DNA from: Pseudonocardia thermophila
GTDB taxonomy: Bacteria > Actinomycetota > Actinomycetes > Mycobacteriales > Pseudonocardiaceae
Direction of reading: 5' to 3'
Assembly (NCBI RefSeq): GCF_900142365.1
Contig: NZ_FRAP01000011.1
Location: 124,001-188,000, forward strand
DNA: 64,000 bases
Each line of letters starts with the position of its first letter. Position 1 is the stretch's first letter. Shown here piece after piece: positions 724 through 54,255 of the stretch. The position numbers and the translations under genes were made by a program. The notes under the pieces were generated by a model. That model worked only from the letters and a program-made list of their open reading frames with translations, had not been told where the DNA came from and did no database searches.

Positions 724-2433
724 ATGTCTGGTTCGACCGGAGGTGAGCCGCTCAAACCCGGTCTGCTGTCCGGGTTGCGGCTCGACGAGCTGCTGCGCGA
801 GGTGCAGGACCGGCTCGCGGAGATCATCGCCACCCGGGACCGGATGCAGGGGTTGCTGGACGCCGTGCTGGCGGTGGGTGCCGGGCTGGAGCTGGACACG
901 ACGCTGCGGCGGATCGTGGAGGCCGCGGCGGAGCTGGTGGATGCCCGCTACGGGGCGCTGGGCGTGCTCGGCCCGGGCGGCGGGATCTCCCGGTTCGTCT
1001 ACGTCGGCATCGACGACGAGACCCGGGCCAAGGTGGGGCGGCTGCCGGAGGGCAAGGGGCTGCTCGGGCAGCTGATCGTGGACCCGCATCCGCTGCGGCT
1101 GCCCGATCTGTCCGCGCACCCGGCGTCGGTGGGCTTCCCGCCGCACCATCCGCCGATGCGCACGTTCCTGGGCGTGCCGGTGCGGGTGCGGGACGCGGTG
1201 TTCGGCAACCTCTACCTGACCGAGAAGGCGGGCGGGCAGGAGTTCACCTCGGCCGACGAGGTCGTGGTGCAGGCGCTCGCGGCGGCGGCCGGGATCGCGG
1301 TGCAGAACGCTGACCTGTTCGAGCAGACCAAGCTGCGGCAGCGGTGGCTGGAGGCGACCGCGGAGATCCGGGCCGAGCTGCTCGCGGGCGCCACGGAGGA
1401 GGACGCGCTGCTGCTGGTGGCGCAGCGGGCGCTGGAGCTGACCCGGGCCGAGGCCACGTTCATCGCGCTCGGCCCGCACGACGACGGTTCCTTCACGATC
1501 GCCGCCCGGCGCGGCTACGGCGCCCACCCGGCGGACCGGGTCGAGCCCGGCCACCCGCTGCTCACCCAGGTCGCGGACTCGGGTTCGGTGGTGCTCGCCG
1601 ACGTCGCCCACGAGCTGCTGGTCGACCCCGTCGCGCGGGAGCAGTTCGGTCCGGTGATGGCCGTGCCGCTGCAGGCCACGGAGTCCATCTGGGGTGTCCT
1701 GGTCGCGGTGCGCACCCGAGGTGACCAGCCGTTCCAGCCCGGCGAGGTGGAGCTGCTCACCTCGTTCGCCGAGCAGGCGACGCTGGCGCTGGACCTGGGG
1801 GAGAAGAACAAGGCGCAGCAGCAACTGGCGGTGTTCGCCGACCGCGACCGGATCGCGCGCGACCTGCACGACCACGTCATCCAGCGGCTCTTCGCGACCG
1901 GGCTGGCCCTGCAGAGCACCCTGCGGCGCACCGACGATCCCGTCGTGCAGCGGCGCATCCAGCGGGCCGTCGACGATCTCGACATGACCGTGCGGGAGAT
2001 CCGCACCGCGATCTTCGACCTGCACACCTCCGGCGAGGGTGAGGCCGGTGGGCTGCGGCGCAGACTGCTCGACACGGCCACCCAGGCCGCGTCCGGGTCG
2101 AGCATCACGCCGACCGTGCGCATCTCCGGTGCGGTGGACACGCTGGTCCCGCAGGACGTCGGGGCGCACGCGGTGGCCGTCGTGCGGGAGGCGGTGAGCA
2201 ACGCGATCCGGCACGCCCGGCCGAAGGAGGTCGTGCTCACCGTGGAGGCGACCGAGCAGGAGCTGCTCGTGGACGTGTGCGACGACGGGATCGGGATCGA
2301 TCCCGGAGTGGCCCGCAGCGGGCTGCACAACCTGGAGGAACGCGCGCTGGAGTGCGGCGGCGAGTTCGCGGTGCGGCCGAACGGTGCGTCCGGCACCCGG
2401 CTCACCTGGCGCGTTCCGCTCGCCAAGCGTTGA
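724..2433 (+). CDS. devS: DevS/DosS-type haem GAF sensor histidine kinase
   Basis: A 569-residue soluble kinase, close to the 578 residues of M. tuberculosis DosS. Order: GAF-A (about 45-195), GAF-B (about 208-360), HisKA_3 dimerisation/phosphoacceptor (about 372-445) and HATPase (about 460-565). In [17 protein letters not shown] contains His142, aligned with the DosS haem ligand His149, and the FGNLYLTEK tyrosine (Tyr164) matches DosS Tyr171, which discriminates O2 from NO. The H-box [12 protein letters not shown] places the phosphorylated histidine at His382. By homology it senses O2, NO or redox state and phosphorylates DevR, whose gene is convergent 180 bases downstream. The ATG at 724 has GAGGAG six bases upstream. 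Confidence in family and haem binding is high; the exact signal is inferred. Confidence 0.95.
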
Positions 2434-2434
2434 G

Positions 2435-2471
2435 GGGCCGCGGGCACTGCTGCCCGTCGTGCCCGCGGCCC
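2435..2471 (+). terminator. GC-rich hairpin after devS
   Basis: A perfect 13-bp stem (2435-2447 with 2459-2471) and an 11-base loop, two bases after the devS stop. There is no clear T-run, as is common for actinobacterial terminators. It separates convergent devS and devR. Confidence 0.6.
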
Positions 2472-2551
2472 GTCATCGCAGGACCGCCGCGCGGTGGTGC
2501 GCGTCCGCGCGCGGTCGAGGTCGGGTGGTTGTGTCGTCGGGCATGCCGCGA

Positions 2552-2611
2552 CTCGGGTGCGCAGAGCTCGGGTGCGCAGAGCTGGAGTGCGCAGTGCTCA
2601 GGTGCCGGCAG
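2552..2611. repeat. 15-bp tandem repeat (4 units) abutting the devR stop codon
   Basis: Two exact copies of CTCGGGTGCGCAGAG (2552-2566, 2567-2581) and two diverged 15-base copies (2582-2611). On the minus strand the array starts at the devR stop codon (2613-2615). Confidence 0.8.
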
Positions 2612-2612
2612 C

Positions 2613-3263
2613 TCAGTTGTGCTGGCGGCCCCGCAGCTCAGCGGCGTACACGGCGGCTTCGGTGCGCCGGGACATGCCGAGCTTGTGCAGGAGCGAGGAC
2701 ACGTAGTTCTTGACGGTCTTCTCGGCGAGGTACATCTCCTCGCCGATCTGGCGGTTGGTGAGCCCGTCGGCGATCAGGTCGAGGATGCGCCGCTCCTGAG
2801 GGCTCAGCGAGGCGTAGCGCGGGTCCTCGGGTTCGTCGCCGCGCCGCAGCCGCTCGAGGACGACGGCGGTGGCCTTCGGGTCGAGCAGCGACCCGCCGGC
2901 CGCGACCGTGCGGACCGCACCGACCAGGTCGACGCCGCTGACCTGCTTGAGCAGGTAGCCGGACGCGCCGGCCATGATCGCCCCGAAGAGCGCCTCGTCG
3001 TCGGAGTACGACGTCAGCATCAGGCACGCCGGGGGCGGGGTGACCGACGAGCGGATCTCGCGGCACACCGTCACGCCCTCGCCGTCGGGCAGGCGGACGT
3101 CGAGGATGGCGACGTCGGGCCGCAGCGCGGGGATGCGCGCCATGGCCTGCGCGGCGGTGGCGGCCTCGCCGACGACCTCGATGTCGTCCTCGAGCTCGAG
3201 CAGCTGTGCGATGCCCCTGCGGACGATCTCGTGGTCGTCGAGCAGGAACACGGAGATGGTCAT
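2613..3263 (-). CDS. devR: DevR/DosR-type NarL/LuxR-family response regulator
   Basis: A 216-residue response regulator (DosR is 217). The receiver domain (about 1-120) has the acidic pair Asp9/Asp10, phosphoacceptor Asp55 in ILDVRLPDGEG, the switch Thr in LMLTSYSDDEA and Lys in GYLLKQ. The LuxR helix-turn-helix (about 150-210) contains LTNRQIGEEMYLAEKTVKNYVSSLL, nearly identical to the DosR recognition helix, which supports recognition of the same type of GGGAC/GTCCC operator. Its partner is the convergent devS. A box-like repeat at 3347-3360 lies 84 bases upstream, suggesting autoregulation as in mycobacteria. The ATG at 3263 is the conserved start (MTISVFLLDDHE). Confidence 0.95.
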   Translation of the reverse strand: MTISVFLLDDHEIVRRGIAQLLELEDDIEVVGEAATAAQAMARIPALRPDVAILDVRLPDGEGVTVCREIRSSVTPPPACLMLTSYSDDEALFGAIMAGASGYLLKQVSGVDLVGAVRTVAAGGSLLDPKATAVVLERLRRGDEPEDPRYASLSPQERRILDLIADGLTNRQIGEEMYLAEKTVKNYVSSLLHKLGMSRRTEAAVYAAELRGRQHN

Positions 3264-3346
3264 GTCGGTGGCCTCCTGTCAGCTGCTGGGAAGACAGTAC
3301 GACGGTTACCCATGGTCCGGCACTCCCGCGGACGTCCCTTGATCGC

Positions 3347-53536: not shown

Positions 53537-53593
53537 TCACACACCTCCTGATCACACACCTCCTGATCACACACCGCCTGATCGCACACCTGA
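53534..53593. repeat. In-frame 15-bp repeat starting at the hsp20 stop codon
   Basis: TGATCACACACCTCC at 53534 and 53549, TGATCACACACCGCC at 53564, then TGATCGCACACC at 53579 and TGA at 53591. All keep the frame, giving five successive in-frame stop codons. Confidence 0.85.
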
Positions 53594-53607
53594 TCACGGT
53601 GTGATCG

Positions 53608-53680
53608 GGGGCTCCGCGCACGAGCCCGCGGCCTGGGACGGCCCCAGGCCGCGGGCTCTTTCCCCTCGTGGCGGAGCCCC
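53608..53680. terminator. Large nested hairpin terminator after hsp20
   Basis: Inner perfect 16-bp stem (53622-53637 with 53643-53658) with loop ACGGC, followed by CTTTCCCC; an outer 9-bp stem (53608-53616 with 53672-53680) encloses it. Best intrinsic-terminator candidate in the window. Confidence 0.8.
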
Positions 53681-53690
53681 TTCCGTGCCA

Positions 53691-53755
53691 CGTCGAGAAC
53701 GAAGCCGTGGTGATCGATGGGGGGCGCTCGACCACCACGGCTTCGGTCCCGACGC
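53691..53755. repeat. Long hairpin, repeat family B (diverged)
   Basis: Left arm CGTCGAGAACGAAGCCGTGG (53691 on) pairs with 53729-53755 with about four mismatches. Same arm sequence as 20331 and 31546. Confidence 0.6.
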
Positions 53756-53781
53756 GGTGCCGCCCGCGTGGGAGCACGCGC

Positions 53782-54255
53782 TCAGGGGCCCAGCCGCCGT
53801 CCGCTCAGCAGTTGCAGCGGGATCGAGATGGTGTGCGCGTCGTGCCCGCGTACCCAGGGGTCGCCGTCGAGCTCGGCCAGTTCCTTCAGCCGGACGGGGT
53901 CGACGACCTCGTACGCCTCGCCGATGCCGAACACGCTCCAGCCGGTGCGGTTCTCGATGTCGACCTCGTCGACCTGGAACCCGACGACGGCGTGCCGGAC
54001 CGCGGCCGCGAGCTTGCTGCCGCCGCGCGTGCGGAAGATGATCTCCTCGCCGTCGAGCCGGTAGGCCACGGTCTGAGCGTCGGGCAGCGCCGAGTGGGTG
54101 AACACGACCCGGCCGATCACACCCGTGGCGAGTAGCCGCAGGCACTCTCGGCGGTCCAGCTCGATCAGGTCGCGCCCGCCGACCGCACGGCTGCGGTCGA
54201 TGCGCTCCGTCTCGTGGACGTGATCCGTCACAGTTCCTCCACCTTCCCCCGTCAT
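53782..54255 (-). CDS. Pyridoxamine-5'-phosphate-oxidase-fold flavin/F420-type protein
   Basis: 157 residues. Split-barrel fold: LDRRECLRLLATGVIGRVVFTHSALPDAQTVAY, EEIIFRTRGGSKLAAAVRHAVVGFQVDEVDIENRTGWSVFGIGEA, with the typical VxGxGxA end. These bind FMN or F420; DosR regulons contain such proteins. Start at ATG 54255 (AGGAG seven bases upstream) or GTG 54231 (GGAGG four bases upstream). A strong box-like repeat lies at 54283. Confidence 0.83.
   Translation of the reverse strand: MTGEGGGTVTDHVHETERIDRSRAVGGRDLIELDRRECLRLLATGVIGRVVFTHSALPDAQTVAYRLDGEEIIFRTRGGSKLAAAVRHAVVGFQVDEVDIENRTGWSVFGIGEAYEVVDPVRLKELAELDGDPWVRGHDAHTISIPLQLLSGRRLGP

Follow-up and report, generated by a model that had tools for sequence, protein, structure and literature searches.

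A probable DevR regulon cluster in a single block

Do the genes that lie side by side with a DevS/DevR-type kinase and regulator in this actinobacterial DNA form the regulon of that pair, or are they clustered for another reason? The window, which here means the whole 64,000-nucleotide stretch analysed (C12:124001-188000, in a 6.1-Mb genome of 47 contigs), contains 53 genes at 724-54231 (54 gene calls after one was dropped, a split CBS gene being counted once). This block is very probably a DevR (DosR/OsdR) regulon cluster. Since it is centred on DevS and DevR and its promoters bear boxes, joint control of its units by DevR is probable. The layout itself is not new, but the block is a new and unusually full DevR/OsdR cluster. 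It is large and densely boxed, and probably belongs to a Pseudonocardia: the closest named relatives of its DevS, among the best 80 of 547 matches, are two Pseudonocardia proteins (62% identity).

Gene families were assigned with a codon-model gene caller, and then with Pfam and NCBIfam; the Pfam scan covered 60 window proteins (to 59948), ahead of the genes at 60117 and beyond. A preliminary description of this DNA set the left edge of the block at 724, which is too far to the right: h140, ackA and xfp are part of it. The latter two, in the adjoining left 20-kb piece (L002), have the same direction as h140, while devS points away from all three on the other side of the box at 519. With this extension the island measures about 58 kb (about C12:120376 to 178299).

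The sensor kinase and the regulator

The best solved relative of DevR is M. tuberculosis DevR (3c3w, E = 1.3e-72, aligned over residues 3-211 of 216), and the next structure match is VraR (1.8e-42). The 25 NCBIfam matches listed for this protein include no DevR model; MadR, NarL and others are under their cut-offs. The best structure match of the first GAF domain of the kinase (GAF-A) is DosT (2vzw, 1.2e-62). In the DosT alignment, the proximal His142 and the distal Tyr164 align with DevS His149 and Tyr171, which serve as haem ligand and as gas-discriminating tyrosine, respectively (PMC4082495). Gly80 occupies the position of DevS Glu87, where DosT also has a glycine. The same review reports the proposal that the DosT glycine allows stable O2 binding and a disagreement among investigators about the autooxidation of DevS. 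Direct sensing of O2 is the most likely function of the kinase. No second DosT-type kinase was found in the genome; the next match (53 bits) covers the kinase part only.

In the proposed mechanism, the haem of the first GAF domain would sense the loss of O2, and probably also NO and CO, and the kinase would phosphorylate DevR. At most transcription units, phosphorylated DevR would bind palindromic boxes, alone or in pairs, and thereby activate the unit. Respiration would then be moved to cytochrome bd, carbon flux and ATP would be sustained via phosphoketolase-acetate kinase, phosphoenolpyruvate (PEP) synthase and glyceraldehyde-3-phosphate dehydrogenase, and universal stress proteins (USP), CBS, Acg and Hsp20 proteins may serve survival. 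The regulon would extend to satellites, probably narG/narK and a ribosome hibernation factor.

DevR-type boxes upstream of most transcription units

Boxes were scored with two matrices. The OsdR matrix comes from the 26 sites of Table 1 of PMC5069765 and was built without this genome. The relatives' matrix, whose consensus is near GCAGGGACGAACGTCCCTGC, was trained on eight regions from seven relatives, which supplied 40 sites, most of them close to devR; this genome was left out here too. These matrices replaced a first genome-wide pattern, which was uninformative (14 and 13 matches, its reversed control giving 23 and 17).

With the OsdR matrix at a threshold of at least 10 bits, the island (2434-54449) has 12 sites in 6,050 intergenic positions and 3 in 45,966 coding positions, compared to 8 sites in 125,214 intergenic positions of the control (60 pieces from elsewhere in this genome, 1.2 Mb in total). 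The island count begins at 2434, and the h140/devS gap is outside it. Column-shuffled palindromic matrices give a maximum of 5 sites and none of the 200 reaches the observed 12. The mirror-image matrix has one island match, in a convergent gap.

The preliminary description mentioned box-like repeats upstream of most units, and this is borne out by the matrices: with the relatives' matrix at a threshold of at least 8 bits, 26 of the 32 island promoters have a box, versus 20 of 652 in the control. Similarly, the numbers are 15/32 and 6/652 with the OsdR matrix at a threshold of at least 10 bits. The boxes are single or paired, mostly 40-200 bp upstream of start codons. To the right of the island, where gntR and catabolic genes are found from 54449 on, boxes are rare (with the relatives' matrix, 0 of 8 promoters at 8 bits and 1 of 8 at 7 bits).

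Some details of these counts should be kept in mind. Two gene-finder calls (477-626 and 13294-13413) are treated as spurious in the intergenic scan with the relatives' matrix and in the promoter and convergent-gap counts, and kept in the 6.05-kb intergenic count made with the OsdR matrix. Some control pieces were chosen by content (L005 and L007 for USP genes, L246 and L274 for cydA and bpa) and L001-L003 as flanks of the window, the others by position only, and the 60 do not include L275. For the promoter counts, Fisher values treat divergent promoters as independent, which makes them too small, and they are not relied upon.

Frequency and gene order in relatives

A DevR match with E ≤ 1e-40, a threshold loose enough to let in related regulators, is present in 194 of 200 family genomes; at E ≤ 1e-100, devR is matched in 8 of the 11 genus genomes, this one included. 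Presence of the island is patchy among the congeners. Only one of 15 related 80-kb regions (13 genomes), that of the congener G122, has a comparably full island, with 17 boxes in 6.2 kb of intergenic DNA. Outside this set, the genome G093 has a larger DevR island, of about 100 kb (C22, L194-L199). It carries devR twice, together with genes for nitrate reductase and hydrogenase-like proteins, both named by reading, and two HPF-type proteins, one over the Pfam cut-off and one under.

Clustering at devRS is, as judged from sequence comparison, a widespread actinobacterial tendency. Indeed, at least five island-like neighbours are found within about 10 kb of devS in 27 of 80 named loci (mean 4), whereas none of sixty 20-kb pieces of this genome outside the island reaches five (mean 0.6). 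The named loci are the best 80 of 547 matches and extend over about 20 kb at most; the neighbour count uses a loose BLAST threshold (E ≤ 1e-6) and is inflated by generic matches, and becomes 25/80 without the cyd-labelled ones. Island-like genes make up 15 of 21 genes near devS in Amycolatopsis keratiniphila, 13 of 18 in Blastococcus sp. MG754426, 11 of 24 in Lentzea flava and 10 of 20 in Mycolicibacterium hodleri.

The comparison of the island across relatives, suggested in the preliminary description, shows content in common with G122 in a scrambled order. This island and that of G122 share 27 reciprocal best hits and keep 3 of 14 neighbour pairs, compared to 58 of 59 in the order control (two ordinary 20-kb regions versus G122, G139 and G181, five comparisons), in which the regions were located through an anchor gene that is itself conserved, a choice biased towards retained order. 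The islands of other relatives keep 1/3, 0/4, 2/2, 1/1 and 0/3 pairs. Within the USP, CBS and Acg families, reciprocal best hits may pair the wrong members. However, gap, adh, pat and sulP, each present once in the island, are also found in other surroundings, and the scrambling therefore does not come from mispaired USP paralogues alone. The scrambled order with shared content is one of the newer points of this analysis, and makes the island useful for testing what keeps a regulon together.

Weighing the alternatives

Several observations weigh against a DevR regulon cluster under joint control. The support comes from sequence, and the two matrices are not mutually independent, the sites of the relatives' matrix having been picked with the OsdR matrix. 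Six of the 32 promoters (those of usp2, the usp5 operon, the bpa2 operon, pit, the SHOCT gene and hsp20) have no box of at least 8 bits, and 17 of 32 are under 10 bits with the stricter OsdR matrix. The 'box' of the promoter at 16534 is a terminator-like hairpin, without which the count becomes 25/32, and the h140/devS box is weak with the OsdR matrix (8.1 bits). The relatives' matrix at 8 bits puts a site in one convergent gap of the window. Searches of the window with simple patterns are also unhelpful: GGGACTNNNGNCCC with two mismatches gives 119 matches versus 187 expected, which is no enrichment, and a looser palindrome (15 versus 10.8 expected) is not clearly enriched.

The block could be a horizontally acquired genomic island, the genes being clustered as a result of transfer. 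This explanation is compatible with a DevR regulon. The scrambled order and the patchy presence in congeners, including devR itself, are in its favour. On the contrary, the window has no tRNA (ARAGORN), integrase, transposase and conjugation families are absent from the 60 Pfam-scanned proteins, the G+C content of the island (0.72-0.78) is near that of the right flank (0.72-0.74), and transfer does not explain a box per unit. Acquisition by transfer is unlikely to account for the clustering.

The genes could also be grouped in a general stress island under another regulator, such as a sigma factor or a Crp-like protein, with DevR controlling only a few of them. The six promoters without a box and the weakness of several boxes would fit this idea, and more than 800 genes are changed in an osdR mutant of S. 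coelicolor (PMC5069765), many effects being perhaps indirect. The box frequency in the island relative to the control argues against it, as does the fact that devR is the only member of a DNA-binding regulator family at 724-54231 (Pfam; proteins with no match cannot be judged in this way). We consider a general stress island of this type quite improbable.

It is hardly credible that the boxes represent palindromic terminators, or repeats of another type, instead of operators: terminator-like elements of the 39-bp family described below do reach as much as 12.5 bits when scored with the OsdR matrix, but at a threshold of at least 10 bits this matrix finds no box in the 23 convergent gaps of three genomes (7 here, 5 in G122 and 11 in G093) and 41 in the other gaps (12, 17 and 12, respectively), which indicates operators rather than terminators, and control DNA of the same genome, terminators included, gives few matches.

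The 39-bp element is an inverted pair of ACGAACGGC-type halves, with 39 bp between their starts, which occurs at 16358-16416, 46085-46141, 60001-60055 and L245:18764-18818. Its halves resemble half a DevR box but it stands 3' of genes, and it is probably a dispersed terminator. These hairpins were left in the counts: the 17 intergenic sites of at least 10 bits in the scan with the relatives' matrix include 46085, and 3 of the 8 control sites of at least 10 bits with the OsdR matrix (two in L245, one in L243) resemble this element.

Likeness to known DevR/OsdR systems

A DevR regulon cluster has known counterparts. In M. tuberculosis, the DosR regulon includes USP, Acg, Hrp1-type CBS, Rv1733c, Hsp20 and CtpF-like families and is spread over several loci; narG and narK are classical DevR/OsdR targets. 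The present block resembles this regulon by its DosT/DevS haem kinase and its DevR, and the core target families (USP, Acg, CBS, Rv1733c and Hsp20) are present, while the nar genes, named by reading, form a boxed satellite. The core of the box is GGGMCS..SGKCCC-like here, versus GGGACT..AGTCCC in M. tuberculosis. With this block, the question of which DosR targets are important can be addressed in a system other than tuberculosis.

The preliminary description presented clustering as a departure from the scattered mycobacterial layout. This is not new: a clustered region, SCO0167-SCO0219, with OsdKR (SCO0203/SCO0204) and 8 of the 11 USP genes of S. coelicolor, is published (PMC5069765), and a Mycolicibacterium is among the 27 clustered loci mentioned above. 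The two regions share a related regulator pair, a closely similar palindromic box, a concentration of USP genes at the regulator (9 of 12 here), and neighbouring genes for pyruvate phosphate dikinase, alcohol dehydrogenase, and proteins of the nitroreductase-family and PNPOx-like types (PMC5069765). Relative to the OsdKR-region genes printed in Table 1 of that paper, the block adds cydABDC, gap, pit, SulP, CHAD, ackA-xfp and two Bpa genes. Its nitrate reductase gene is found on a different contig, as a satellite, and its kinase gene lies tail to tail with the regulator gene, whereas those of OsdKR form an operon. Some members of the island are also unsurprising in view of the lividans data in PMC6302529. 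A limited literature search found no paper on DosR in Pseudonocardia.

Satellites on other contigs

The block was first described as almost self-contained, which does not hold, because boxed or family-matching satellites are found on three other contigs. On C26 (L255:11380-16437), a box of 14.0 bits (OsdR matrix) and 17.5 bits (relatives' matrix) lies between narG-like and narK-like genes, which were named from reading the sequence and not from a family scan. On C24 (L007:8484-11185), one box precedes a DUF1918 gene and another lies between Hsp20 and USP genes (14.7 and 10.9 bits with the relatives' matrix; under the OsdR matrix the first reaches 10.2 bits). After the USP comes the gene of a long ribosome hibernation factor. 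On C33, the gap common to an Acg gene and a USP gene holds a 9.1-bit site seen by the relatives' matrix only. A gene which resembles the Rv1733c family, a label given from reading, follows the C33 pair.

The box scan covered about a fifth of the genome, and more satellites are therefore likely. The other control sites of at least 10 bits precede secG-like, hydrolase and small membrane-type protein genes, with no evident link to the regulon. A second cydA is found elsewhere, on C14.

Tail-less Bpa paralogues

The least expected part of the island is a pair of paralogues of the bacterial proteasome activator Bpa, of 118 aa (20537-20893) and 129 aa (51031-51420), which are 63% identical to each other. 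Both pass PF10759 (111 and 112 bits), and the second matches the Bpa structures 5lfj/6bgl (E = 1e-25) over the helical domain. The genome also has two matches to proteasome subunit genes, side by side, and a canonical Bpa on C38, 177 aa long, which ends with GQYL. Both island paralogues end without this motif, which docks Bpa on the proteasome (PMC4254994, PMC11953334). They have Gln in place of His131 and Val or Met in place of Phe138, by alignment reading with positions placed by spacing; in PMC11953334 these are substrate-site residues. The first paralogue probably belongs to an operon, which has a 10.8-bit box, and the second has no clear box.

Among 100 family genomes, a diverged second Bpa is present only here and in G093, in both cases in the DevR island, and a canonical-like second copy (202 bits) in three others. 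The Bpa of the G093 island retains GQYL, and loss of the tail is thus not general for such paralogues. In a search of 394 class genomes with the pair, the two proteins of this genome score 263 and 232 bits and the next match, at the level of canonical Bpa, 115 bits, among the matches listed. No Bpa-labelled gene occurs in the stretches covered of the other 15 regions and of the 80 named devS loci. A limited literature search found no paper that links Bpa to DosR or hypoxia, and the two paralogues without the GQYL tail are, like the scrambled order, among the newer points.

These observations suggest a speculative and somewhat unlikely proposal, in which the island is kept together by its regulator and not by inherited order, and the tail-less paralogues, acquired by the island in this lineage, are made under hypoxia, which would be a direct link from DevR to the proteasome. 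With a DevR box of their own, units could be shuffled or exchanged while the content stays. The tail-less paralogues may enter the twelve-subunit Bpa ring or compete with it, and the ATP-independent proteasomal degradation of substrates such as HspR could be slowed in dormancy. A connection between dormancy control and the bacterial proteasome would follow.

Gene content of the block

The families named in the preliminary description were largely recovered with Pfam and NCBIfam (Table 1). Nine USPs, cydA, cydB, the fused cydDC, gap, adh, pit, SulP, Hsp20 and the PNPOx-like protein are confirmed, as are ppsA (PEP-synthase type), the Rv1733c-like protein (119 bits for a cut-off of 80) and the seven CBS genes, one of which is split over two frames. 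Of the five Acg proteins announced, four pass the curated cut-off (199), while the fifth (19516-20322) is partial and divergent, with 38 bits in one scan and 22.8 in another. The Rv2004c-like protein has an AAA_33 domain, on which alone the likeness is based. The CtpF-like protein is a P2-type ATPase, but the specific models are all below their cut-offs. In the CYTH-CHAD protein, CHAD is present and CYTH is sub-threshold. The island contains 9 of the 12 USP proteins of the genome (16 of 20 domain matches) and 4 of its 5 full Acg proteins.

Table 1. Genes and DevR-type boxes of the island (window coordinates, or L002 coordinates where indicated; box scores in bits, with the relatives' matrix unless indicated).
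Feature	Position	Strand	Basis	Box
h140, small protein, heads probable operon h140-ackA-xfp	34-456	-	gene call, no Pfam match	
ackA, acetate kinase	L002:18772-19968	-	Pfam	
xfp, phosphoketolase	L002:16376-18775	-	Pfam	
DevR-type box, h140/devS divergent gap	519-538			10.9 (relatives' matrix), 8.1 (OsdR matrix); 72 bp upstream of h140
devS/dosT-type sensor kinase	724-2433	+	two GAF, HisKA_3, HATPase (Pfam); DosT/DevS structures	
devR/dosR response regulator	2613-3263	-	Response_reg + GerE; 3c3w	
Two DevR-type boxes, devR/usp1 gap	3344-3363, 3436-3455			11.9 and 13.0 (relatives' matrix)
usp1; small s46	3540-4442; 4439-4579	+	usp1 PF00582; s46 no match	
cydA; cydB; fused cydDC	9381-10784; 8285-9370; 4851-8288	-	Pfam/NCBIfam	upstream 10924-10943 (15.2)
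Two-CBS (Hrp1-like) protein	11044-11463	-	Pfam	11561-11580 (12.9)
Acg family protein	11586-12659	-	NF047509, 311 bits	12746-12765 (9.3)
Rv1733c-family protein, two CBS proteins	13644-15283	+	Pfam/NCBIfam	13471-13490 (12.0)
usp2	15409-16320	+	Pfam	best site 5.7, under 8-bit threshold
GNAT + ADP-forming acyl-CoA synthetase, then divergent partial Acg	16807-20322	+		weak, 8.3
Probable operon usp3-u295-Bpa paralogue (20537-20893)-s56	20370-22709	-	Pfam	22750-22769 (10.8)
Flavodoxin, usp4, ppsA	22868-26567	+	Pfam	22750-22769
usp5, Acg, CBS operon	26665-28950	-	Pfam	best site 6.1, not convincing
usp6, AAA_33 (Rv2004c-like) protein	29099-31449	-	Pfam	31500-31519 (15.6)
CBS-CBS-BON protein	31799-32467	+	Pfam	31500 and 31668
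Acg-usp7-Acg operon	32649-35247	-		35334-35353 (10.8), 35368-35387 (16.0)
DUF1918, usp8	35434-36554	+	Pfam	35334-35353, 35368-35387
gap	36729-37730	-	Pfam	37839 (15.9), 37880 (10.7)
s77, CBS-CBS-BON protein	38017-38950	+	Pfam	37839, 37880, 37927
adh, pit, STAS protein	39099-41963	+		38954 (12.9), 40038 (7.9), 41379 (17.3)
P-type ATPase (CtpF-like)	41969-44482	-	Pfam/NCBIfam	44594 (8.6)
DUF3040, usp9, SulP	44711-47899	+	Pfam	45118-45137 (16.7)
s125, SpoIIAA-like, CHAD/CYTH, DUF190, second Bpa paralogue (51031-51420)	47875-51420	-	Pfam	49074 (8.9) for SpoIIAA-like; bpa2 operon best 5.1
CBS gene, two overlapping frames	51998-52620	+		weak, 51892 (8.5), 51951 (8.7)
SHOCT protein, Hsp20	52739-53536	+	Pfam	site 52640 at 7.9, under 8 bits
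PNPOx-like protein, right island end	53782-54231	-	Pfam	54280-54299 (8.3)

Three genes deserve a comment. The CBS gene in two overlapping frames is either a pseudogene or the result of a sequencing error. The 295-aa protein u295 (20890-21777), encoded in the usp3-bpa1 operon, has no Pfam or NCBIfam match and is probably membrane-bound, as judged from its sequence. The GNAT domain fused to an ADP-forming acyl-CoA synthetase (16807-19482), which is preceded by a weak box, could represent a protein acetylation branch of the programme.

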